From Pseudarthrobacter chlorophenolicus A6 (GTDB taxonomy: Bacteria > Actinomycetota > Actinomycetes > Actinomycetales > Micrococcaceae): a stretch of DNA of 64,000 bases. The notes under the pieces were generated by a model. It was not told the DNA's origin. It made no database searches and saw only the letters and a program-made list of their open reading frames with translations. The stretch is taken from assembly GCF_000022025.1 (NCBI RefSeq), contig NC_011886.1, positions 4,139,953-4,203,952 on the forward strand, in the 5' to 3' direction. Positions 23,317-36,315 of the stretch are shown piece by piece (the first letter of the stretch is position 1; each line of letters begins with the position of its first letter). A program made the position numbers and the translations under genes.

Positions 23317-24387
23317 TTACCCTTCGGCTTTGCCCTGCCTCCAGTAACCCATGAACGCAACCTGCTTCCGGTCGATGCCCACGTCCCGCACCAGGTAGCG
23401 GCGCATGTCCTTGATGACGGCTGCTTCGCCTGCGATCCACGCATAGAACGGCATGGCACCGGCGGGCATGTCCGGGTTCTTGGTGGCGCTGATGGCGGCG
23501 GTTTCCATCCGGGACGGTGTCTCCCAAAGGATGTCCTCGTCCACGTTGACGTCTTCGGGCTCGGGGCCCGCACCGGCGTCGGAGGCTTTGATGCCCACCC
23601 AGCCCGGGACGGGGACTGCCTTGCGTACGGCGTCCTGCAGCAGCTGGCCGTGCGGGCGGGACCGGCCGATCGCTGCACCGCGGGCCAGCCAGGTGATTTC
23701 GATGTCCGCCGGCGAGCTGAGCTGCTGGAAGTCGCCGGCTTCCGGGACTTCGAGGAAGGCGTGGCCGGTCATGTAGGACGGGAGGCTCTCGAGGATGGCG
23801 GAGATGGCCGGAATCGCAGTCTCGTCGCCGGCGAGCAGGACGCGCTGGGCCAGGCCCGGCCGCCATTCGATGCCGGAGTAGATTTCGGCGGTGACGCAGT
23901 GCGCTGCGCGGTTATTGGGGCCGATGATGGTGATGGCGTCGCCGGGCTTGGCGTTCAGTGCCCAGTTGGCGGCGGGCCCGCCGTTTCCGTGGTCGTCAAA
24001 GTGCATGACGAAGTCCACGTCGATTTCCGGGTACACCTCGTCCAGCCGGGCGTCGCGCACGGTGTAGGTGCGCATCGAGCCCTTCACGGCGGGGTCCATG
24101 GCCAGCCATTCGCGGTACCAGCCCGATTCGCTCATTTCGAAGACCGGCAGGGGAATCTGTGTTCCGTCGGCAGCGACGGACGGGATCATCAGCTTGATCC
24201 GGAGGTCCAGGGTGTCCCCGTGGACACCGAAATCGCGGAGGCAGTAGCCGCCGAACGTGATCCGGCGGAAGTTGGGGCTGAGCTCCTGCACCGATGAGAC
24301 GGTGACCTCGAAGGCCAGCGTCATCGGTTCTGTGTTCATGGGCTTGAGGTTCTGTGACGTGGTGGCTGCGGCGTCGCGGGTCTTCAT
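23317..24387 (-). CDS. Siderophore-interacting protein (FAD-dependent ferric-siderophore reductase)
   Basis: 356 residues of the ViuB/SIP family, which reduce ferric siderophores in the cytoplasm to release iron. Seen are the FAD domain with MRTYTVRDAR, an oxygen/flavin-binding IIGPNNRAA segment, and the C-terminal NAD(P)H domain with LLAGDETAIPAISAILE and the final YAWIAGEAAVIKDMRRYL and GYWRQGKAEG typical of SIP proteins. It is last in the iron operon; its ATG overlaps the ATPase stop by 4 bases. Internal Met codons leave the exact start open. Confidence 0.93.
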   Translation of the reverse strand: MKTRDAAATTSQNLKPMNTEPMTLAFEVTVSSVQELSPNFRRITFGGYCLRDFGVHGDTLDLRIKLMIPSVAADGTQIPLPVFEMSESGWYREWLAMDPAVKGSMRTYTVRDARLDEVYPEIDVDFVMHFDDHGNGGPAANWALNAKPGDAITIIGPNNRAAHCVTAEIYSGIEWRPGLAQRVLLAGDETAIPAISAILESLPSYMTGHAFLEVPEAGDFQQLSSPADIEITWLARGAAIGRSRPHGQLLQDAVRKAVPVPGWVGIKASDAGAGPEPEDVNVDEDILWETPSRMETAAISATKNPDMPAGAMPFYAWIAGEAAVIKDMRRYLVRDVGIDRKQVAFMGYWRQGKAEG

Positions 24388-25205
24388 GAAACAAGCTCCA
24401 GTTCGGTGGGGACGTGATGGCGGCCGATGGGAATGATCAGGGGCGTTCCGGAAACGGGATCCGGGATGACGCGGGATTCGAGGTTGAAGACGCTGCGGAC
24501 CAGGTCCTCGGTGACAACCTCGCGCGGGGTACCTTCGGCCACCACGGCGCCGGCTTTCATGGCAATCACGTTGTCTGCGTAGCGAGCCGCGAGGTTCAGG
24601 TCGTGCAGGACGATCGCCACGGTGGTCCCGCGCCTGCGGTTAAGGTCCGTGACGAGGTCCAGGACTTCCACCTGGTGGGCCAGGTCGAGGTACGTGGTGG
24701 GTTCGTCCAGCAGCAGAACGTCGGTTTCCTGCGCCAGGGCCATGGCGATCCAGACCCGCTGGCGCTGCCCGCCGGAGAGTTCGTCCACGTTCCGCCCAGC
24801 GAGGGCCAGCGTTTCGGTGGCCTCCAGCGCACGCTGCACCGCGGCGTCGTCCCCGGCGCTCCAGCTGCGGAAGAAGCCCTGGTGCGGGTACCGGCCGCGG
24901 CCCACCAGGTCGCGGACGGTGATGCCGTCCGGCGCGGTGGGATGCTGCGGCAGCAGGCCGAGGGTGCGGGCCAGTTCGCGGGCAGGGCGGGTGTGGATGT
25001 CCTTGCCGTCCAGCGTCACAGCGCCCCCGGCAGGTCTAAGGAGCCGGGACAGTCCGCGGAGCAGAGTGGACTTTCCGCAGGCGTTGGCGCCCACGATCAT
25101 GGTCACCCTGCCTTCGGGGATTTCGACACTGAGGCCGTCCACCACGCAGCGCTGATCGTATTTCAGCGTCAGGTCCTTGGCGTTCAGAACTGCCACGTCA
25201 GGCAT
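24384..25205 (-). CDS. Iron-siderophore ABC transporter ATP-binding protein
   Basis: 273 residues of the FecE/FepC type. Walker A is GANACGKST, the signature is LSGGQRQRVWIAM, Walker B is VLLLDEPTTYLD, and the switch histidine is in IVLHDLNLA. It powers import through the two permeases encoded just upstream. The ATG at 25205 overlaps the end of the permease gene by 8 bases, showing tight coupling. A longer frame upstream to 25466 overlaps the permease gene and is not used. Confidence 0.95.
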   Translation of the reverse strand: MPDVAVLNAKDLTLKYDQRCVVDGLSVEIPEGRVTMIVGANACGKSTLLRGLSRLLRPAGGAVTLDGKDIHTRPARELARTLGLLPQHPTAPDGITVRDLVGRGRYPHQGFFRSWSAGDDAAVQRALEATETLALAGRNVDELSGGQRQRVWIAMALAQETDVLLLDEPTTYLDLAHQVEVLDLVTDLNRRRGTTVAIVLHDLNLAARYADNVIAMKAGAVVAEGTPREVVTEDLVRSVFNLESRVIPDPVSGTPLIIPIGRHHVPTELELVS

Positions 25206-26313
25206 CCTTTCGGTTGTTCGTGACCAGGAGCCACAGCAGGAACGGGGCACCGAGCGCGCCGGTGATGACGCCCACCGGCAGGACGGTTCCGTCCAGCACC
25301 AGCGGGGCAAGGTTGGCGGCGAGGAAGTCCGCGGCGAGGACGATGAGGGCCCCCACCAGGGCCGACGCCGGCAGGCTGGCTTTACGGGTGAAGCGCCGGG
25401 CGATGGGACCGGCCAGGAAGGCGACGAACGAGACCGGCCCGGCGGCCGCCGTCGCCACCGCCGCAAGGGTGACGGCGATGATGACCAGGGCGAGGCGGGC
25501 GGCGTTGACCCGGATGCCCAGGCCTGCCGCGGTGTCGTCGCCCAGTTCGAGGATGCGCAGCGGCCCGGCGATGACGGCCACAGCGGGAAGGAGCACGGCG
25601 AGGGCCAGGAACAGGATCCCGGCGCGGTCCCAGTTGGCGGAGTTCAGGGAACCGTTGAGCCACACCAGGGCGTCTGCGGCGGTGCGGATATCAGCGCGCG
25701 TCATCAGGAAGTTGACCACGGCGTGCAGGGCGGCAGCGATTCCGACGCCTGCCAGTACCAGCCGGTTGCCGGCGGCATTGCCCCGGCCGGCCCCGCGGAT
25801 CCCGCCGCTGGAAATCGCGTAGATCAGGCCCGCTACGGCCAGGGCCCCCACCAGCGCGGCGCCGGACACCACTGCACCTGATGCGCCAAAAATCACGATG
25901 GCCACCACGGCTGCGGCGCTGGCGCCATAGCTGATGCCGATGATGTCCGGGCTGGCCAGCGGGTTGCGGAGCATCGTCTGGAAGAGTGCACCGGCCAGCC
26001 CGAAGGCCAGTCCGATCATGGTTCCGATGACCGCCCGCGGGAGCTTGTTCTCCATGACGATGAAACTGGCACCGGGGATCCGGGGACCGCCGGTCAGGTG
26101 GTTGAAGACGATGGTGAAGAAGTCAGGGATGGTCACCGTGTAACTGCCCAGCAGCACGGAAACGAAAAAGAGGACCACGACGCCGGTGGCCAGGAAGGCG
26201 GTCCGGTTCAGGGGGATCCGTTCCCGGCGTTGCCCTATCACTTTTGGTCCCTTGGACCCGGTTTTGGCAGCGATATCTGATGGGGCAAGCGGGGTGGTTG
26301 CCTTGAGGGTCAC
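25198..26313 (-). CDS. Iron-siderophore ABC transporter permease (FecD/FepG type)
   Basis: 371 residues with an N-terminal cytoplasmic tail of about 45 residues followed by nine to ten membrane segments. Family marks are ENKLPRAVIGTMIGLAFGLAGALFQTMLRNPLASPDIIGIS and the late GPVSFVAFLAGPIARR. It starts with GTG at 26313 overlapping the stop of the partner permease (GTGA). It pairs with the next permease to form the membrane channel. Confidence 0.93.
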   Translation of the reverse strand: MTLKATTPLAPSDIAAKTGSKGPKVIGQRRERIPLNRTAFLATGVVVLFFVSVLLGSYTVTIPDFFTIVFNHLTGGPRIPGASFIVMENKLPRAVIGTMIGLAFGLAGALFQTMLRNPLASPDIIGISYGASAAAVVAIVIFGASGAVVSGAALVGALAVAGLIYAISSGGIRGAGRGNAAGNRLVLAGVGIAAALHAVVNFLMTRADIRTAADALVWLNGSLNSANWDRAGILFLALAVLLPAVAVIAGPLRILELGDDTAAGLGIRVNAARLALVIIAVTLAAVATAAAGPVSFVAFLAGPIARRFTRKASLPASALVGALIVLAADFLAANLAPLVLDGTVLPVGVITGALGAPFLLWLLVTNNRKDA

Positions 26314-27401
26314 AGTCCGGCTCCCTTCCCGCGGCGGACCAGCCATACGAACACGGGCGCGCCGATGAGTGCGGTCATGATGCCGGCCGGAACCTCCCCG
26401 GGAAGCAGCACCACCCGTCCCACAATGTCGGCGCCGAGCAGCAGCACGGGCGCCACGACCAGGGAGAACGGCAGGATCCAGCGGTAGTCCGGGCCGGTCA
26501 GGAATCGGACAGCGTGCGGGATGACCAGTCCGACGAAGGCGATGGGGCCCGCCATCGCCGTTGCGGATCCACACAGCAGCACGATGCCCAGGGCAGTGAT
26601 GCCCCGGGCGAGTCCCACGCGCTGGCCCAGGCCGCGGGCAATGTCATCACCCAGCGCCAGGCTGTTGAGGATCCGGCCGGTCAACAGCACAACGACAGCC
26701 CCTGCAGCCAGGAAGGGCAGCCCCGCCAGCACCACGGACCAGTCACGGCCGGCAATGCCGCCCACCTGCCAGAACCGGAACTTGTCCAGGGTGTCCTGGC
26801 TGGAGACCAGGATGACGCTCATAAGCGAGTACAGGCCCGCGTTGAGGGCGGCACCGGCCAGGGCAAGCTTGACCGGCGTGGCTCCGTCCCGGCCCAGGGA
26901 TGCGATGAAGTAGACCACGACGGCGGCCACGGCGGCGCCGATGAACGCGAACCAGATGTAGCCGGACAGCGAGCCGACGCCAAAGACATAGATGCCGGTC
27001 ACCACGGCCAGGGCGGCGCCCGCGTTGACGCCCATGATTCCGGGGTCGGCAAGGGGGTTGCGGGCTACGCCCTGCATGGCGGCGCCGGCCAGGCCCAGCG
27101 CACCGCCGGCCAGCAGGCCGAGGATGGTGCGGGGAATACGGGCGTGGACCACAGCGTGGTCCCCGTTGGCGGGATCGAACTGCGTGAGCGCGTCCCAGAC
27201 GGTGCCCAGCGGCAGGCCCCTCGCGCCGACGGCGAGGGATGCACCTGCCAGGACGGCGAGTACGACGACGGCGGCCAGCAGCCAGGCGGCGCGCTTGCCG
27301 GGGAACGCGCGGGCGCTCCCCGGGGCACGGGCTTCCGTCCCCGGCACCGAAGTGCCGGGGCTTGCGGCCTGGCGTGCCGCCGTCGTCGAACTCTGTGTCA
27401 C
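26310..27401 (-). CDS. Iron-siderophore ABC transporter permease (FecC/FepD type)
   Basis: 363 residues. After a hydrophilic N terminus with alanine/proline stretches come about nine membrane segments. Family marks are IPRTILGLLAGGALGLAG, MQGVARNPLADPGIMGVN and IAFVGLVIPHAVR. It lies 10 bases after the substrate-binding protein gene and overlaps the second permease by 4 bases. It is homologous to that second permease, as is normal for these pairs. Confidence 0.93.
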   Translation of the reverse strand: MTQSSTTAARQAASPGTSVPGTEARAPGSARAFPGKRAAWLLAAVVVLAVLAGASLAVGARGLPLGTVWDALTQFDPANGDHAVVHARIPRTILGLLAGGALGLAGAAMQGVARNPLADPGIMGVNAGAALAVVTGIYVFGVGSLSGYIWFAFIGAAVAAVVVYFIASLGRDGATPVKLALAGAALNAGLYSLMSVILVSSQDTLDKFRFWQVGGIAGRDWSVVLAGLPFLAAGAVVVLLTGRILNSLALGDDIARGLGQRVGLARGITALGIVLLCGSATAMAGPIAFVGLVIPHAVRFLTGPDYRWILPFSLVVAPVLLLGADIVGRVVLLPGEVPAGIMTALIGAPVFVWLVRRGKGAGL

Positions 27402-27411
27402 GGAACCGGTG

Positions 27412-28497
27412 CTACTTCACGGCATCCGCTGCGGTGGCCAGTTCGGGCAGGAACGTGTCCAGCGCCCAGGGAAGGCTCAGCGGTGAGGAAGCAGAGATAG
27501 CGAGGACCAGGCTCTTGTTGGCGTCTGCCACGAACGCGCCGCTCTTGACGGCAGGGATCTGTCCGAGCAGGGGGTCGTTCTTGATGGCGTCAGCTTCGCT
27601 GGCGTCTTCCACCGAGCTGAGGAAGATGTCCGAATCAAGTTCGTTGACCTTCTCCGCGGACCACGGCACGAAGAATTCCTTCGAACCGGCCGATGCCTGC
27701 TCCGCAACGGGGGCGAGCTTCATGCCGATGGAGGACAGGAACTTGGGCCGGTTGTCGTTGGCCGTGTAGATGCCGGTCTGCGTGCGGTCGGACGGCAGGG
27801 CGTAGCCGTAGATGAACGTCTTGTCCTTGATCTGCGGGTACTTCGCCGCCTCTTCCTTGACGGTGGCCTCGGTGTCGGAGACCAGCTTGGCGGCTTCGGC
27901 GTCCTTGCCCAGCGCCTTGCCCACGATGGTTGTGGCGTCCTGCCAGGAGGTCCCGTAGGCCAGCTCGGGGTGCGCCACCACCGGCGCGATTTCGCTGAGC
28001 TTCTTGTAGTCCTCTTCGGTCAGACCGGAGTAGGCGGCCAGGATGACATCCGGGGTGAGTTTGGCGATCTCGGTGAAGTTGATGCCGTCGGCTTCCGAGT
28101 ACTGGACCGGAGCCTTGTCGGTGCCGAATCCGGCGCCGAGTTCTTCAAGTGCGGCGTCCTTCCACGGTGTGGAGCCCTTGTCGTTGCCGCCCCATTCGTT
28201 CTTGGGGACACCTACGGGGACAACACCCAGGGCAATGGCGACGTCGTCATTGACCCAGGAGACCGTGGCAACCCGCGTGGGCTGCTTCTCGATGGTGGTC
28301 TTGCCGAACACGTGGTCGATGGTGACCGGGAACTGTGCGCTGCTGGAGGTGGGTGCGCTGGCATCGGACGTCGACGTTGCCGGGCCGGTGGAGCAGGCGG
28401 AGAGCGTCACCGCGGCGGCCAGGATAGCCGACGCCCCGGCTGACCTAAGCAGCGTGCGGCGGGTGGTGCTGGTGCCCGTGAACAGGGAGGAAGCCAT
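27412..28497 (-). CDS. Iron-siderophore substrate-binding lipoprotein
   Basis: 361 residues. The N terminus has RR-containing TTRRTLLRSAGASAILAAA followed by the lipobox LSAC, so it is an exported lipoprotein, possibly through Tat. The body is a class III periplasmic-binding fold (PTRVATVSWVNDDVAIALGV, LTPDVILAAYSGLTEEDYKKL, APVVAHP). It probably binds a ferric siderophore, inferred from the SIP gene and the iron box. The start has AAGGAA at good spacing. It is first in the five-gene operon. Confidence 0.93.
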   Translation of the reverse strand: MASSLFTGTSTTRRTLLRSAGASAILAAAVTLSACSTGPATSTSDASAPTSSSAQFPVTIDHVFGKTTIEKQPTRVATVSWVNDDVAIALGVVPVGVPKNEWGGNDKGSTPWKDAALEELGAGFGTDKAPVQYSEADGINFTEIAKLTPDVILAAYSGLTEEDYKKLSEIAPVVAHPELAYGTSWQDATTIVGKALGKDAEAAKLVSDTEATVKEEAAKYPQIKDKTFIYGYALPSDRTQTGIYTANDNRPKFLSSIGMKLAPVAEQASAGSKEFFVPWSAEKVNELDSDIFLSSVEDASEADAIKNDPLLGQIPAVKSGAFVADANKSLVLAISASSPLSLPWALDTFLPELATAADAVK

Positions 28498-28865: not shown

Positions 28866-29360
28866 ATGCAATCAGTCACGCCCCAGCAAATCCGCTCATC
28901 CTTCGTCAACGCCAGCCGCTCCGAGGCCGCCAAACTCAACTTGCCCCAGCACTTCGACAGCATGGACTGGGACAGCCTGGACTTCCTCGGGTGGCGGGAC
29001 CCCAAAATGCCGCTGCGCGGTTATCTCGTGGTTCCCGGCCCCAAGGGCCTCACCGGAGTGCTGCTCCGGGCACCCGAAGGTGGCGCCCGGAAGAACCGCT
29101 CTGTCCTGTGCGAACTGTGCCGCGACGTGTTCTCCAAGGAGGACGTATTGCTCTGGGTGGCCCGGCGCGCCGGCCAGTCCGGCCGCAACGGCAACACCGT
29201 GGGTACCCTGATCTGCGCAGACTTCCTGTGCTCCGGCAATGTCCGCAAAGAGCCCCCGGCCAACGAGATCAACCCGGACCCGGCCGCCGTCGTGGTCCGC
29301 CAGATCCAGGGCCTCCAGGACCGCACCGCGCAGTTCCTGGGCAGGGTGCAGCTGAAGTAG
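28866..29360 (+). CDS. FBP-domain protein (treble-clef zinc finger, EF-G-binding type)
   Basis: 164 residues. It resembles FusB-like proteins that bind elongation factor G through a C-terminal treble-clef zinc finger; the zinc ligands are in VLCELCRDVF and, 40 residues on, ICADFLCSGN. The N-terminal helices (PQQIRSSFVNASRSEAAKL) and FLGWRDPKMPLRGYLVV also fit. FusB relatives rescue ribosomes from fusidic acid, but environmental actinobacterial homologues are of unknown role. No operon partner is seen. Confidence 0.8.
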   Translation: MQSVTPQQIRSSFVNASRSEAAKLNLPQHFDSMDWDSLDFLGWRDPKMPLRGYLVVPGPKGLTGVLLRAPEGGARKNRSVLCELCRDVFSKEDVLLWVARRAGQSGRNGNTVGTLICADFLCSGNVRKEPPANEINPDPAAVVVRQIQGLQDRTAQFLGRVQLK

Positions 29361-29370
29361 GGAACGGGGG

Positions 29371-30093
29371 TCAGCGGTAGGTGAAGCTGGCCAGGATGGC
29401 CTTCAGCGCCTGCCCCTGGCTCCCGGCAAACCACGCACGGGCGGTTTTGTCGTCCGGGAACTGCTGGTCATCGAACAGCACTTCCGCCGTGAGCACGCGG
29501 TCGCCCAGGAGGATGATTCCCTTGACCGCGTCCCGGGGGCCTGTTGCCGGTGCGCCCGCCGTCAGCTGCAGGTGGTACGTGGCATCGTCATCGTCCCAGT
29601 CCACATAGAACGAGGCATGCGCCTCCGGAGTGGACCGGCCCTGCAGCCCGGGCACCGGTACGGATTCGAAAACGGTCCTGGTGACGGGCCCGGAGACGCC
29701 ATCGGCGATTTGTCCGTAGTAGATGCTGACCAACTGCTTGTCACTGGCATCGTAGATGGTGGCCGTTCCCACATACGGGGACGCCGAGGCCTCGAAGACC
29801 TCTGCCTTCCAGTCCGCAGGCCGGGTGAAGGAAAGCTTGCCGTCAGGGAAGGTGAAGGTTGCCAGCCCGGCCGCAGCAGGATCGGAACTCGACGGCGCCT
29901 GCGTGGCGGCCCGGCCCGGCGTCGCGGACGGGGCCGCAGGCTCCGGCGCTCCCGTCGAAGGGGGAACAGTGGCGGCGGGAGACGTCACGGCGCCGCCGGG
30001 TCCGGCCGGCCCGCCGGATGTGCAGCCTGCCAGGAGTAAGGCGGCTGCGGTGGCCAGGGCGAAGGGTCCGGTCAGGCGGCGGGCTGGGTGCAT
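29371..30093 (-). CDS. Putative lipoprotein of unknown function
   Basis: 240 residues. The signal peptide ends in the lipobox LLAGC, followed by a Gly/Pro/Ala/Thr linker of about 55 residues and then a folded domain (ATFTFPDGKLSFTRPADWKAEVF, SIYYGQIADGVSG, FYVDWDDDDATYHLQL, ARAWFAGSQGQALKAILASF). I do not recognise the domain. It lies downstream of the jetABC genes on the same strand, but a hairpin at 30236-30261 and 200 bases separate them, so it is probably a separate transcript. Confidence 0.8.
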   Translation of the reverse strand: MHPARRLTGPFALATAAALLLAGCTSGGPAGPGGAVTSPAATVPPSTGAPEPAAPSATPGRAATQAPSSSDPAAAGLATFTFPDGKLSFTRPADWKAEVFEASASPYVGTATIYDASDKQLVSIYYGQIADGVSGPVTRTVFESVPVPGLQGRSTPEAHASFYVDWDDDDATYHLQLTAGAPATGPRDAVKGIILLGDRVLTAEVLFDDQQFPDDKTARAWFAGSQGQALKAILASFTYR

Positions 30094-30295: not shown

Positions 30296-33200
30296 TCAGC
30301 GCAGCACGATGTCCACCGGATTCGCCTCGGACCGCCAGGCCCCCTCCTCGCCCTGCCTGGGACGGATGACCGGCGCCGTCAGCACGCCGGAACGGTTGGT
30401 GCGCCGGTCCCGGAGGATCTCGGTTACGGAGCCCAGGTGCCGGGACAGGTCGATCACGTTCTCCGGGGCGGCCAGCAGCAACTGGAAGCCGAACTCGTGC
30501 AGCGCCTTGATGCCTGCACCGGCGAACTCCTCGGAAGCGAGTACGAAGGCTTCGTCCATCATGACGGTGCCGTACGTGGTGAAACCCTGTTCGGCGATGC
30601 CCAGCTGGTAACTGAGGGCGGCCGCCATGATGAACGCCGTAAACCGCTGCCGCTCACCACCGGACATGGAACCGGTGTCCGCGTGCATGAACACCTCGGT
30701 CTTCTTGCCGGCCTTCTTTCCCTTGCCCGAGGGGGCGGTGACCTCGCGGTGCTCCTTGCACTGGATGAACAGGTGCCCGCGGACATCCAGCACCTCGGCC
30801 CGCCAGCGCCGGTCCTCCGGGGCCTGTGAGCCCAGGCGCTTCACCAGCGTTTCCAGGGATTTGTAGCGTGCCGTGAGCTCGGCGTCGTCGTCCCGTTCCG
30901 CACCCGGCTCCGTTTTCGCGGGGCGGGTATGCCGGGCCTTCAGCGCGTTCTGGATGGCGTCCTTGAACTGCTTGGCCGTGGGCGGCAGGGTCTGCTTGAT
31001 GTCCAGTTCCAGGAAGCTGCCCTCATGGAAGTTCACCTGCGACAGGATGCCGTTCAGGGGCAGGATCCGGCTGGTGATGGAGCGGCGTTCCTCGTCCAGG
31101 AGGTGCAGCAGGGTGCTGAAGGATTCATGGGTGCGCTGGTTGAAGAACTGCCGGAATTCGGCTTCCTGCGCCGGCAGGCCGTCATTGACGATCGCGTGGT
31201 AGCGGGCTTCGAATTCGCTGGCCGCGCCAATGCTGGTGCCGTGGTCGGCGGAGATGGCGCTGCCCCATTCCCGCACGAACCCCTCGAAAATACGGGTGAG
31301 CCGCTCCGCGGTGGCCTGTCCCCGGGATTCGGCGGTATGCAGCTCGCCCTGCAGTGCGGTCCGCACCCTGTTGGCGAGGTTGTCCAGCTCGTGCATCTCC
31401 GTCACGTCGCCGAAGTCGGCGAAGTACGGTTCCATCGCCGTGACGGTGGCGTCCGACGGCGGCGCCTCGGCCAGGCGGTGGCGTGCGGCTTCCAGCAGGG
31501 AATCGGCAGCGGTCAGTTGCCTGTCGAGCGCCTTGTACTCGCTCTGCAGCACGGCCGCAGATTCGGTGCTGGACTGGTGCTTCTGCCGGACCTCCTCGAT
31601 GGTGGCGCGCAGCGGCTCCAGGTCCGCCTGGGCGGCAAGGGCATCCTTGAGCCGCTGCTCGATGCCCGCCAGCTCATCGGCTGCGACGGCTGCCGAGACC
31701 TGGTCCCAGGGCCTGTCGTCCTCAGCGATCCGGCGGAGCGCTTCGAGCTGCCGGCTCATGCCCTGGTGGGAATCTTCCCGGCTCTGGGCCAGCTCGGCGG
31801 CCTTGGCAACTTCCTGCCGGAGGTCCTCCACCTGGCCGGCCACAAGTTCCAGCTTGGCGGCGTTGTCGAATCCCAGCACGTAGTCCTGGCGGCTGGTGAA
31901 CCGGTCGTCCTTTTCCACGGTGTGGCGGTTCCGCTTGACCACGCCGCCCAGGCTCAGGCCCCTGTCCAGCGCGGCGAGCTGGTCCGGGTCTTCCACGCAG
32001 GGGTAGGCGAAGTCGAGGGCGATGCGTTCCCGCACCCATTCCCCGGCCTCGGCAGCCGCACCGCTGGCGAGGATGTCCAGCTTGGTGAGCAGGTCGCCGT
32101 CGTGCGCGTCCTCCACTGCCAGCGCACCGCCGGCGAGGGGCTTGGAGACGTCCACGGCCCGCAGCGCACCCCGGACGTTGTGGTCATTGAGGTAGCGGGT
32201 GACGGCACGAAAGTGTTCGCCAGGGACCAGGAGCGTGGTGGCCAGGTTGCGGAGCGCGCGCTCGGCCGCCGGCCGCCACCGCTCCTCCCCCTCGGCCAGG
32301 TCCATCAGCTCACCGGCGAACGGCATCCTGTCCTCCGGGATGCCGGTGGCCGCGGCAATGGCGGCACGGTTTTCAATGCTCGACGGCGGCAGCAGGGATT
32401 TGCGCGTCTTCAGCGACACGAGTTCCTGCTCAGCCGCGGCAAGTTCGCGCTTGCGGCTGGCGTGTGCGTCGAACGCCTCGAACCGCAACTCCTGCAGCGC
32501 CTGCGAATCATCCTTCAGCTCCGCGGACCGGGCGGCCGCCTGCTCGTGCGCTTGCTCCCAGCCGGAAGCCGTCCACTCAAGCTCCAGCCCGGCGTCGGAC
32601 AGCGCCTGCTGTGCGGCCTGCTCCACCTGGCGGCGGAGGCGCAGCCCCACCCGGGCGTTCTCCAGCGACTGCTCAATGGCGGAAATGGCGTTGCCGCCCT
32701 GGCTGTTGTAGTCCGTTTCCAGCTGCCGCAGGTTCTTGGCCAGGCCATCACGGACCGAGCGCTCGGCGCCGAGTTCCCTGGCTTTGGCCTGCGCCAGTTC
32801 CTTGAACCGGGCCAGGATCTTCTGCTGGACGGTGACGGCGAGGCGCTGCCTGTACGACTCGAATTCGCCGCCGGCCAGCTCCCGGAGCCGGTTGGCGTCA
32901 AGGAGCGCCTGGGCATACTCACGGTTCAGCCCCGGAACCGGCGCCAGCTGGTCGCGCTGCTGGCGGACGTCTTCGAGGCGCTGGCGGATGGACATGAGGT
33001 TGCTGAACTCTTCCACCACATCGTCAGCCGCGGTCAGTGTTGCGGGGGCATCCAGCACCTGGTCGCGGAAGAACGTGTTGACGCTGCCGCCCAGGCCCTT
33101 GCCGGCCTGGATGACCCGCAGCAATGGAAGCGCCTGGTCCGAGCTGATGCCCAGCAGCCGCCGGAACCGCTCGGCGAAGGCCTTGTGGACATCGAACACC

Positions 33201-33757
33201 TGGGCGTGCGGGAAGACCGTTTCCAGCGCACCCTTGGTGAACCGCTTGTCCGCGATGCCTTCAATCGCGTCGAGGTCCAGCGGAACATTGTCGATCAGGT
33301 AAAACCGGCCCACGCTCGATTCCGTGCCGTTCTTCGGCAGGTCGAACAGCGCCGAGACGGTCACCCGGGTGCCCGCAGCGTTGTCGAACGTCAGCCCGAC
33401 GGCGGACCAGGTGGCACCGGGGCGCTGGAAGGCACTGGCCGAGCCCTCGCCGACGGCCTTGTCGCCCACCTTGCCGCGCATGTACGTGAAGGTAGTGCGC
33501 TTGTCCTCCACAGCACCGCCGGACCGCTGGGCGGCTGCCTCGTTGGACCGCGGCCTGGCATCGAAAACGCGCAGCATGGCGTCGAAGAGGGTGGACTTTC
33601 CCACGCCGGAGTTACCGGTCAGCAGGGTTCCGTTGCGGTCTACCCGCATGGTGTGCGCGCCGTGGAACGTGCCCCAGTTGACCACCTGGACCAGCGCCAG
33701 CCGCATCTGTCCGGGGTTCGTCTCTTCCCCCAGCGGGAGCATGCTCGGAATGGTCAC
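30296..33757 (-). CDS. jetC: Wadjet/MksBEF SMC-like ATPase JetC (MksB)
   Basis: 1,153 residues, the SMC motor of a Wadjet-type complex. Walker A is GNSGVGKST at residues 48-56 in a [17 protein letters not shown] context typical of this family. Long Ala/Glu/Arg/Gln-rich coiled coils flank a central hinge region. The C-terminal head has the signature [12 protein letters not shown] and the Walker [12 protein letters not shown]. The start overlaps the jetB stop by 4 bases. In complete Wadjet systems the SMC complex extrudes DNA loops and hands circular plasmid DNA to the JetD nuclease. No jetD follows here. Confidence 0.93.
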
Positions 33758-34602
33758 TTGGCGGCCTCTGTGTCGTCGTTGTCGTGGTCCTCGCCATCGG
33801 CGGGCTCAGCCACCGGATCTGCGTCGAGGTCCAGGAGCGGTTCCGTGCCGGACTGGTCCGTTGACGCGGCCACCAGGGCTTCGATGTGGGCCGGGATGTC
33901 GCCGATGTTCTCGAACGGGAGGGCCAGCGGGAGGGCGTTGGAGATGGTGTACACGTCATCAAGGCCCGTGGGCAGCAGGAGCTGGCGGGCCAGGAGCTTG
34001 GTGATGGCACGGGTGACCACGTCCGAGTCTCGCAGGGCGTCCTGCTGGCCGGAGGGCTGGTAGTGCGCCACCAGGTCCGTGATTTCCTCGCGGGTGATGG
34101 TGGGGTCCGTCTGGGCGGTGACGTGCCGGTCCAGCAGGAGCCGCAGCCGGAGCAGCACGATGGTTTCCACCCGGCTGAGCGCACGCTGCTGCCGCAGGAT
34201 GCTGGACCGGGCGCTGCCGCCGATCACGTCCGGGTCCACGGGGCGCAGGACGGCGATCTTCCGCTCATGGTCCAGCTGCATGCTCAGGAACAGCTCCGAA
34301 AGCCGGCTGCGCAGGATCACCTGGTTGTCCAGGAGGACTGTCCACAGCTTTTCGTCCCGGCCGCCGTCAATGTACGGGCCCTTGAGGAGCTTCACCAGTG
34401 CCTGGCGGACCTTCATGTTCAGCACGCCCGTGTCGCCGGGGAACAACGCGGCCCCGTCCACGAAGGTGTCGCGGGGGGAGACTGCTGCGGTGACGTGGCT
34501 GGCCGGCATCGGATCGTCCGCGGTTTCGACGGTCTCAACCACCGTCTCGAGAGTTTCGCTCCCCACCTGCTCAACTGCCGGCGTCGTGATCTCTTCAGTC
34601 AT
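33754..34602 (-). CDS. jetB: Wadjet/MksBEF accessory protein JetB (MksE, DUF4194)
   Basis: 282 residues. It has the DUF4194 pattern: [42 protein letters not shown], then a winged-helix region ([31 protein letters not shown]) and a late [14 protein letters not shown]. It is the KITE-like subunit that dimerises and binds the kleisin. Acidic tails are present at both ends. It overlaps jetA by 8 bases and jetC by 4, so the subunits are co-translated. Confidence 0.92.
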
Positions 34603-36052
34603 CTGAATCCTTTGCGAACGTGACCACCGGCAGGTAGGCCCTGCGGGTGGAGCCGTCTATCTGTTCGAAGTCCAGGCCCTCGAAATCGCTGCGGTTGAAG
34701 TCGGCCCCGGCGTGCAGGGCCTCCGACAGGAGCGCCCGGATGGTGTTGATGTGCTGCTCTTCGGGCGGCAGCTGCCCCCAGGCGTCGCCCAGGGTCGTGG
34801 CGCCTGCCATGGCCGCGCGGACCACAACCGGTTTGGCTTTGCCGGTCCTCGGCGAGCGCACGCGGTCCGAATCGCTGAAGGCGATGGGATCGGCCAGTTT
34901 GGGCGGCGCCGCGAACTCGTCGGGGTCGAACAGCTTCACCATGGACAGCGCCTCGAAACCCGCGTTGTACAGGACCGGTCCGGGAACCAGGCCGGGCCGG
35001 TCGCGCTCGTACGGCAGGGACCGGATGGCGTGCTCGGCCTCGCGCAGGACCTGCCGCAACCGGACCGACTGGCGGAAGTCGTCGCTCTGGACGTAGGTGT
35101 TGAGGCTTTCGCTGAGCTTGCCGTAGATGCGCTGGATCTGGCTGTGCTGCTGGCGGAGTTCTGCCACCAGGTTCTTCAGTGTTTCGCGGTCCTCCGGCGA
35201 GAGGTCGTCCGCGAACTGCCGGCCGAGGACTTCACCGATGGCCGAGCGGAAGCGAAGCTGCTGCTGAGGGTCCTCCAGGAACGCGGTGAAGGACCGGAAC
35301 GTCCTGCCCTCCGGGCTCTGGCGGAGGCGCTTGTCTGCTTCCAGCACCTGCGCCATGGTGGCGCCCTTGGTCAATGACTCCTCGATGATCTGGTTGCGGA
35401 GGCCGCCCACCAGTTCTTCGATCCGGTCGCGCATCTTCTTGTAGTCGGCGGGCAGGCTGGCGGCCAGGTCCAGGATGTTGCCCGCGGCCTCCACGGCTTG
35501 GTCGTCATCGAGCAGACCGTCGAACTCGCCGCTGCTGATGTCCTCGATCAGCTGCTGCCGCTCGCCGATTTCCTCCTCAAGGGCCTCAAGCCGGGCGCTC
35601 TGGTCCGGGTTGGTCTCATTGGCGAGCTTTTCGACGTCACCGAGCAGCGTGCCCAGCCGGGACCCGTTCAGGGTGGACCGTTCACTGGACAGGCTGTCCA
35701 GAAAGGCGAGCACGCGGGCGGCCGGTTCGGTGACTTCGTACACGATCTGGCCCGACTGGTTCCGGCGGGTCAGGAACTGCCGCCGCGTCCACTCGTCGCC
35801 GAACGACTTGCCGTTCGCGCCGCCTCCCAGGCCGGGGTCCTGCCGGCGGAGCTCCTCAAGGAAGGAGTCGACGTCGGCATGGAACTCCTCGAGCGGAAGC
35901 TGCGGCCGGGTGCGCGTGAAGGATGCCTGCAGCACCGCGATGACCCACGGCGCCGAGCGGGTGAGGGCCCAGGCGGGTCCTTTGGTGAGGAGTTCGAGGT
36001 CCCGGAGCCGGGCGCTGATGGCGTCAGCGGATGACCTGGCGGAGCGGGGCAC
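34595..36052 (-). CDS. jetA: Wadjet/MksBEF kleisin-like protein JetA (MksF, DUF3375)
   Basis: 485 residues of the DUF3375 family, the kleisin that joins the SMC heads. Features are an N-terminal [17 protein letters not shown] segment, [23 protein letters not shown], a central helical region, and a C-terminal [12 protein letters not shown] and [11 protein letters not shown]. The GTG at 36052 has AAGGAG five bases before it and is preferred over a longer frame to 36109. It is first in the jetABC operon and divergent from a small membrane protein gene. Confidence 0.92.
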
Positions 36053-36315
36053 ACACTCTCCTTGGACTGTTGGCGGGGCGGGCGGCGGGGCGGGCCGGAA
36101 AACGGCCAACTACAAGGTTAACGCAGCCCGTTCAGGGGGACCGCCGCAACCGCTCCGTGACCTACCTGGCGGTAGGGTATCGATCCCGTATCAACAGCGG
36201 TTTCCCGGCGCCCGGCTCTGGCTGGCCACGCGGGCCCCACCCTACGCTTTCTGCTACCGGCCTTCGCCGCTTGGCCGCAGCAGACTTTCACCACAGCAAC
36301 GCCGCAGGGGGACAC
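36053..36315. other. Divergent intergenic region, no gene seen
   Basis: About 260 bases between jetA and the small membrane protein gene. Promoters for both are expected. No palindromic operator was recognised. Confidence 0.45.

Follow-up and report, generated by a model that had tools for sequence, protein, structure and literature searches.

A jetABC operon without jetD

The 64,000-nucleotide stretch of Pseudarthrobacter chlorophenolicus A6 analysed here (bases 4,139,953-4,203,952 of a contig of about 4.4 Mb that has dnaA at base 570; hereinafter designated the window) carries a jetABC (mksFEB) operon related to Wadjet type I defence systems, with no gene for the JetD nuclease. The genes lie in the order jetA-jetB-jetC on the minus strand and encode proteins of 485, 282 and 1153 residues. 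The first, jetA (mksF; window positions 34595-36052), starts with GTG downstream of an AAGGAG and encodes a kleisin of the DUF3375 family (Pfam PF11855, 296.5 bits, 4.8e-88; PADLOC JetA1, 868 bits). It is followed by jetB (mksE; 33754-34602), encoding a KITE subunit of the DUF4194 family (PF13835, 98.1 bits, 5.9e-28; PADLOC JetB1, 528 bits), and by jetC (mksB; 30296-33757), encoding an ATPase of the structural maintenance of chromosomes (SMC) type with AAA_29 and SbcC_Walker_B matches in Pfam (PADLOC JetC1, 1162 bits). The coordinates confirm the overlaps of 8 bases (jetA/jetB) and 4 bases (jetB/jetC) given in a preliminary description of this DNA. Its statement that the ATPase motifs are complete and that the SMC complex looks intact is likewise borne out by the Walker A (GNSGVGKS), signature (SGGER) and Walker B (VMMDEAF) motifs of JetC and by the match of the three subunits to their families. 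The solved JetC proteins of E. coli and P. aeruginosa (8as8/8dk2) match the window JetC at E 5e-63, and solved Wadjet JetA chains match the window JetA at E 2e-23 over residues 23-351 only.

The operon resembles Wadjet type I in its A-B-C order, short overlaps, DUF3375, DUF4194 and JetC1 families and retained ATPase motifs, and differs from it in that neither the operon nor the genome encodes JetD. Searches of the whole genome, which includes two further contigs of 427 kb and 158 kb, for the two JetD domains, JetD_C (PF09983) and DUF3322 (PF11795), each gave 0 matches, while C. glutamicum, the positive control among 14 control genomes, was matched in both. A profile built from 30 JetD proteins and read to E<=10 found no match in any of 65 stretches from the family Micrococcaceae (the window included) or of 76 stretches from named relatives. 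The lack of jetD beside jetC noted in the preliminary description thus holds at this permissive threshold, and its suggestion that the nuclease lies elsewhere fails as regards a recognisable JetD-family protein in this genome. At least 3 kb of sequence follows jetC in 61/65 family and 71/76 named stretches; the other nine (L074, L077, L084 and L105 in the family; L170, L181, L182, L187 and L210 among the named) end 0-1.5 kb past the jetC frame or inside it, and are therefore little informative on a linked jetD. Among the four short-stretch family genomes, JetD adjoins the other JetA in G093, G140 and G051, and G074 falls outside the 40 JetD_C-positive genomes.

The three genes are intact and constrained

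Full-length open frames of jetA, jetB and jetC are present in 65/65 family loci, which span 12 genera. Every family JetC has Walker A and Walker B, and the SGGE signature is found in 64, the last one reading AGGEI by pattern. Among the 76 named relatives, open frames are found for JetA in 74, JetB in 76 and JetC in 72 (misses in L162, L182, L187 and L225), and pattern searches of JetC recover 74 Walker A, 71 signature and 70 Walker B motifs (misses in L162, L182, L187, L204, L224 and L225). Ratios of non-synonymous to synonymous substitution rates (dN/dS, NG86) against seven relatives of the genus are 0.08-0.13 for JetA, 0.05-0.12 for JetC and 0.16-0.30 for JetB. jetABC is under purifying selection.

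A decaying Wadjet remnant, or an assembly artefact that removed jetD, would account for the missing nuclease, and JetB, with its dN/dS of 0.16-0.30, is the least constrained subunit. The full open frames across 12 genera, the low dN/dS and the recurrence of the same gap in many independent assemblies nevertheless make both scarcely credible, and on these grounds loss of jetD by decay or assembly break was rejected. The assembly break considered in the preliminary description also does not agree with the position of the window inside the contig, which leaves no contig end nearby.

The JetD-less operon recurs in many genomes of the family

Comparison of the locus in related genomes, proposed in the preliminary description, shows that the JetD-less operon is widespread. 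Of the 76 named relatives, which JetB retrieved at 74-97% identity, 75 are named Arthrobacter or Pseudarthrobacter and one is named Micrococcaceae bacterium. In a sample of 149 family genomes, JetA is present in 82 and JetD in 40, and the JetA matches fall into two score classes, one of 376-493 bits that normally has JetD 5-7 kb away and one of 281-364 bits with no JetD found alongside. Exceptions in the high class are G136 (376 bits, in a genome without a JetD_C match) and G105 (JetD on another contig). The low-score, JetD-less operon occurs in 65/149 genomes; 43 of these, P. chlorophenolicus A6 included, lack any JetD_C match, and in the remaining 22 JetD_C adjoins a high-class JetA in 20 and is present as fragments only in G061 and G109.

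These 22 genomes raise the possibility that a second, complete Wadjet operon supplies JetD in trans. The 43 genomes without a JetD_C match anywhere speak against it, as does the distance between the two classes, since the window JetA and JetC share only 22-30% and 24-36% identity, over local segments, with the second-class loci L126-L132. We consider this explanation very improbable in general; for P. chlorophenolicus A6 it was rejected, because no JetD domain match exists in that genome.

In a sample of the own genus, JetA is found in 121/121 genomes and any JetD in 52/121. The low-score JetA class is present in at least 118 of the 121 among the matches listed, leaving G470, G509 and G517. 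By hand count, 49 JetD matches reach 140 bits, and 45 of these have a JetA scoring 396 bits or more no farther than 7 kb away; the four exceptions are one match each in G468, G472, G530 and G542. Score alone is insufficient to define the JetD-less lineage, which is instead defined by the tree, because G483 and G526 each combine a JetA of 292-298 bits with another of about 301 bits to which a divergent JetD is linked, and G523 has a JetD-linked JetA of 340 bits alongside its JetD-less one.

Across a phylum sample of 296 genomes, JetA is found in 16 and JetD in 22, so that most of these genomes have neither gene. In an order-wide search with the window JetC, the 16 matches that reach at least 39% identity along most of the protein all come from the family; full-length matches outside it do not exceed 34%, and three partial ones (68-162 residues) reach 37-54%. 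JetD accompanies JetC at 20 of the 40 out-of-family loci examined, and 13 of the 20 loci without it lack JetA too.

Seven further JetA-JetC operons have no JetD downstream (L314-L317, L319, L320 and L322, from families f72, f77 and f78). In family f75 of the same order, JetC stands alone at 13 loci (L285, L287-L293, L296-L300; PADLOC JetC1 1165 bits in L290), and none of the 13 stretches, up to 13 kb long, holds a match to JetA or JetD at E<=10; the L292 stretch begins at jetC, its upstream side lying outside the data. JetB precedes the lone JetC in L297 and L299 only, and the JetC match contains one stop in genomes G628 and G815. Retention of a kleisin-less SMC protein across a group would be odd. 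Family f6, of the same class, has a separate long-branched JetABC clade without linked JetD (L142, L145-L148); JetD occurs elsewhere in two of the five f6 genomes, as a partial copy on another contig in G417 and beside a second operon in G218.

Most JetD-less JetC proteins sampled from the family form one old clade

Two JetC trees were built, each of 69 sequences and neither with an outgroup. The first combines sequences from 35 of the 65 operons of the family with 24 JetD-linked and 10 other JetD-less ones. In it, 32 of the 35 family sequences and two copies from plasmid records form one clade with the window JetC, supported at 100 by the Shimodaira-Hasegawa-like approximate likelihood ratio test, and all sampled members of the clade are JetD-less; the remaining three family sequences (genus g10) are placed elsewhere. 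The second tree keeps 17 of the 35 family sequences and adds, from other families of the order, 12/20 JetD-linked, 7/7 JetD-less and 4/13 JetC-only loci; support for the main clade is still 100. JetD presence changes 7 times on this tree, or 5 times counting well-supported branches only, against 4 on the first. Several JetD-linked sequences sit on long branches. The operon thus belongs to an old branch of Wadjet type I that lacks JetD and is not the product of a local deletion.

Groups in a JetD tree largely match those of the JetC partners, two of three being undivided and one split by a single sequence. This match fits joint descent of JetD and JetC, and hence an ancestral JetD that was lost in the JetD-less lines.

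Inheritance and chromosomal place

Distances of the JetD-less proteins follow those of RpoB, with a Mantel r of 0.764 for JetC and 0.775 for JetA (30 genomes) and a between-genus r of 0.52. For JetD-linked JetA (13 genomes), r is 0.43 and falls to -0.04 between genera; the JetD-less JetA of the same 13 genomes gives 0.73. These correlations suggest that the JetD-less operon has been maintained in Micrococcaceae by mainly vertical descent.

With dnaA searched in 44 genomes and the operon-dnaA distance computed for 24 from 9 genera, the JetD-less operon lies within 1.3-18.7% of the replicon from dnaA, and 191-439 kb from it in nine genomes of the own genus. The chance that all nine genus means fall so near dnaA is 1.5e-4, a rough value that assumes independent genera and uniform places. 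Among five JetD-linked operons for which the distance was computed, three in the own genus lie 1.1-2.1 Mb from dnaA, and the two from other genera are at 0.23 and 0.40 Mb. Within the own genus, the JetD-linked operons of G447, G513, G482, G510, G539 and G549 lie about 1.1-1.2 Mb from dnaA and that of G523 at 2.1 Mb; the common site at about 1.1-1.2 Mb suggests an insertion hot spot.

Neighbours of the operon

Mechanically called open reading frames (ORFs) flanking the 65 operons (about 5 kb on the upstream and 8 kb on the downstream side, some loci being cut) were clustered. No cluster is common to all 65 operons; the commonest occurs in 28 loci at scattered distances. A replacement for jetD beside the operon was accordingly rejected, and neither the different effector envisaged in the preliminary description nor the gene co-occurring at the same place in relatives that it proposed to look for emerges from these loci. 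Context is conserved inside many genera and differs between genera; the acyl-CoA dehydrogenase side, for example, is common to 7/8 operons of the own genus.

A gene for a RecB-family nuclease/helicase lies upstream of the JetD-less operon in 17/65 loci (L061-L066, L069, L074, L080, L083, L088, L089, L093, L094, L096, L098 and L105), directly adjacent to it in L074 and L105. The cluster shares 55-76% identity with a gene of L232 (Arthrobacter sp. ERGS1:01) that carries this annotation. Such a gene would suit an operon that still serves defence, with an unrelated or unlinked nuclease standing in for JetD in trans, and SMC-like motors do pair with varied effectors in Lamassu and Rad50-type systems, according to the accessible part of PMC10586767. 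However, none of the neighbours recurs at all 65 operons, the RecB-type gene is beside 0/8 operons of the own genus (the window included), and P. chlorophenolicus A6 has no JetD-family protein, so that we regard a substitute nuclease as quite unlikely.

The site where jetD would be is occupied by a lipoprotein-like ORF (29371-30093, minus strand) with a lipobox apparent from its sequence and no Pfam match above cut-off. Relatives of this ORF are found in 5/65 operons, its own included, and it is therefore not a conserved partner. Beyond it lies an FBP_C gene (28866-29360, plus strand; PF16571, 198 bits). The preliminary description placed both genes on the strand opposite jetC, which is right for FBP_C and wrong for the lipoprotein-like ORF. 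The hairpin that it placed after jetC exists as a 9-bp inverted repeat (30236-30244/30253-30261), a possible 3' transcript end; the repeat has no T run, and a terminator scan did not report it. Upstream of jetA, a promoter is expected in the region 36053-36315, towards a presumed divergent plus-strand gene, and a scan of this region gave no sigma-70-like match. Siderophore uptake genes (a binding protein, two FecCD permeases, an ATPase and a SIP reductase) lie downstream of jetC at 23317-28497; a FecCD and SIP set also precedes the lone JetC in L290, which is probably a coincidence.

Class-specific residues in JetA

The AlphaFold model of JetA is of low confidence (mean predicted local distance difference test score 65, predicted template modelling score 0.30), with only its two end domains usable. 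In a Foldseek search with it, the PDB chains matched at E<=0.001 number five and belong without exception to Wadjet entries (TM-scores of 0.20-0.31), and a 94-residue chain of 8dk3 (entry title: JetA cWHD) matches at E 0.1. In a comparison of 62 JetD-less with 30 JetD-linked JetA proteins, restricted to positions at least 90% conserved within each class, eight positions differ. Three of them lie in one helix of the C-terminal domain, with H434, N436 and R439 in the JetD-less class in place of G, A and V in the JetD-linked class. By its position, this domain is predicted to be the cWHD, and the three substitutions may be a trace of changed partners, which we offer as a lead only. The corresponding JetC comparison (62 versus 24 proteins, at 90% and 80%) yielded six differences at scattered positions.

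Discussion

Wadjet type I includes C. glutamicum MksBEFG and M. smegmatis EptABCD. In print, both are counted as JetABCD. The accessible portions of published studies assign sensing of circular DNA, by extrusion as proposed, to JetABC and cutting to JetD (PMC10586767). In C. glutamicum the kleisin MksF links the nuclease MksG to the complex (PMC7083940), and deletions of mksG, mksB and mksF have an equal effect on plasmid pBHK18 (PMC10123090). The window operon differs from Wadjet, which is patchy in occurrence, in following the RpoB tree and in being present in every genome of the genus sample.

Two chromosomal systems also invite comparison. P. aeruginosa MksBEF has a role in chromosome organisation and segregation, as far as the consulted part of PMC7485682 goes, and it too is a nuclease-free SMC-kleisin-KITE operon next to SMC-ScpAB. 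The window JetB, however, scores only 22.5 bits against the Pfam MksE family PF21980 (cut-off 27); together with its strong DUF4194 match, this points to a branch other than MksBEF. SMC-ScpAB has the same SMC-kleisin-KITE plan, yet JetC scores 16.1 bits against NCBIfam SMC_prok_B, whose cut-off is 567.35, and ScpA has a gene of its own at 1.716 Mb.

Retention of the ATPase motifs, loss of the cutter, agreement with the RpoB phylogeny and presence of JetA in 121/121 genomes of the genus sample are best explained by an auxiliary condensin. We therefore propose, with a probability of roughly 60%, that JetABC (MksFEB) is here an intact nuclease-free SMC complex, most likely a second condensin on the chromosome beside SMC-ScpAB. 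In this proposal, a Wadjet type I ancestor would have lost jetD and then been passed on mainly vertically in Micrococcaceae. As in Wadjet, DNA would be bound and, at the expense of ATP, reeled into loops by JetC dimers that the kleisin JetA and JetB hold together; on meeting a small circle, the complex would, for want of JetD, release or compact it instead of cleaving it. It would act on the chromosome as a second condensin next to SMC-ScpAB. We infer both the chromosomal target and loop extrusion by the window JetABC. The nuclease-free condensin with a housekeeping role suggested in the preliminary description fits vertical inheritance, the presence of JetA throughout the genus sample, chromosomal place and purifying selection; that relatives keep the cutter-free motor intact means that it is probably a housekeeping machine now, the role itself being deduced from these features.

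Several points weigh against this proposal. The sister group of the main JetD-less clade is not the same on the two JetC trees, neither of which has an outgroup, and for this reason we only infer that JetD was lost and not gained. Two of the five JetD-linked operons are also near dnaA, so that nearness is no mark of the JetD-less class. The between-genus r of the JetD-less JetA in the 13 genomes is only 0.22, and the complex evolves fast, with a 12% JetC difference at a 1.2% RpoB difference. An unlinked and unrelated effector nuclease could be encoded elsewhere in the genome, at the low likelihood given above to a substitute for JetD. Finally, MksBEFG of C. glutamicum, an actinobacterial relative that has been studied, acts on plasmids and not in chromosome organisation, although it bears a nuclease, according to the part of PMC7083940 consulted.

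This last finding, in which Mks affects plasmid copy number and not the chromosome, also favours non-destructive control of plasmids or other extrachromosomal circles, in which small circles would be recognised by total extrusion and then compacted, silenced or lowered in copy number, as proposed for Smc5/6. Close kin of the complex are plasmid sensors, and circle sensing in Wadjet is due to JetABC (PMC10586767, as available). Unlike the patchy JetD-linked operons, however, the JetD-less one is present in every genome of the genus sample and agrees with RpoB, and we hold circle control to be rather unlikely. The auxiliary condensin remains our preferred explanation.

An actinobacterial JetD-less lineage, universal in the genus sample and with signs of repeated JetD loss, appears to be new. 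Our literature search, with most subscription papers outside its reach, returned no description of a nuclease-free Wadjet lineage in Actinomycetota. The nearest published case is Paenarthrobacter lasiusi S21, a related species for which a complete type I operon is recorded together with one of about 5.8 kb that has JetABC only. The latter is listed as 'Wadjet: JetA, JetB, JetC' in a table of defence systems (Table 6, PMC11719660) and so classed as defence, and the missing nuclease goes undiscussed in the portion of the text consulted. Software that announces 'Wadjet' on the strength of JetABC alone places such operons under defence, a warning that we base on this entry and on the PADLOC JetA1, JetB1 and JetC1 scores of the window proteins.

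Descent of MukBEF/MksBEF from Wadjet is an inference in print, with Pseudomonas MksBEF thought to derive from JetABCD through JetD loss (PMC10586767, accessible part). In Actinomycetota, anti-plasmid Wadjet motors may repeatedly have been stripped of their nuclease and domesticated, in view of the changes of JetD presence on the wider JetC tree and of the JetC without JetA in one Micrococcales family. The Micrococcaceae product would then be an ancient core condensin, an independent parallel to this proposed origin of MukBEF/MksBEF and miscounted as defence; to this wider reading we give even odds. Disarmed and armed copies occur side by side in one genus of soil bacteria, which brings the conversion of chromosome condensins and anti-plasmid SMC systems into each other within reach of work on mutants and purified components.

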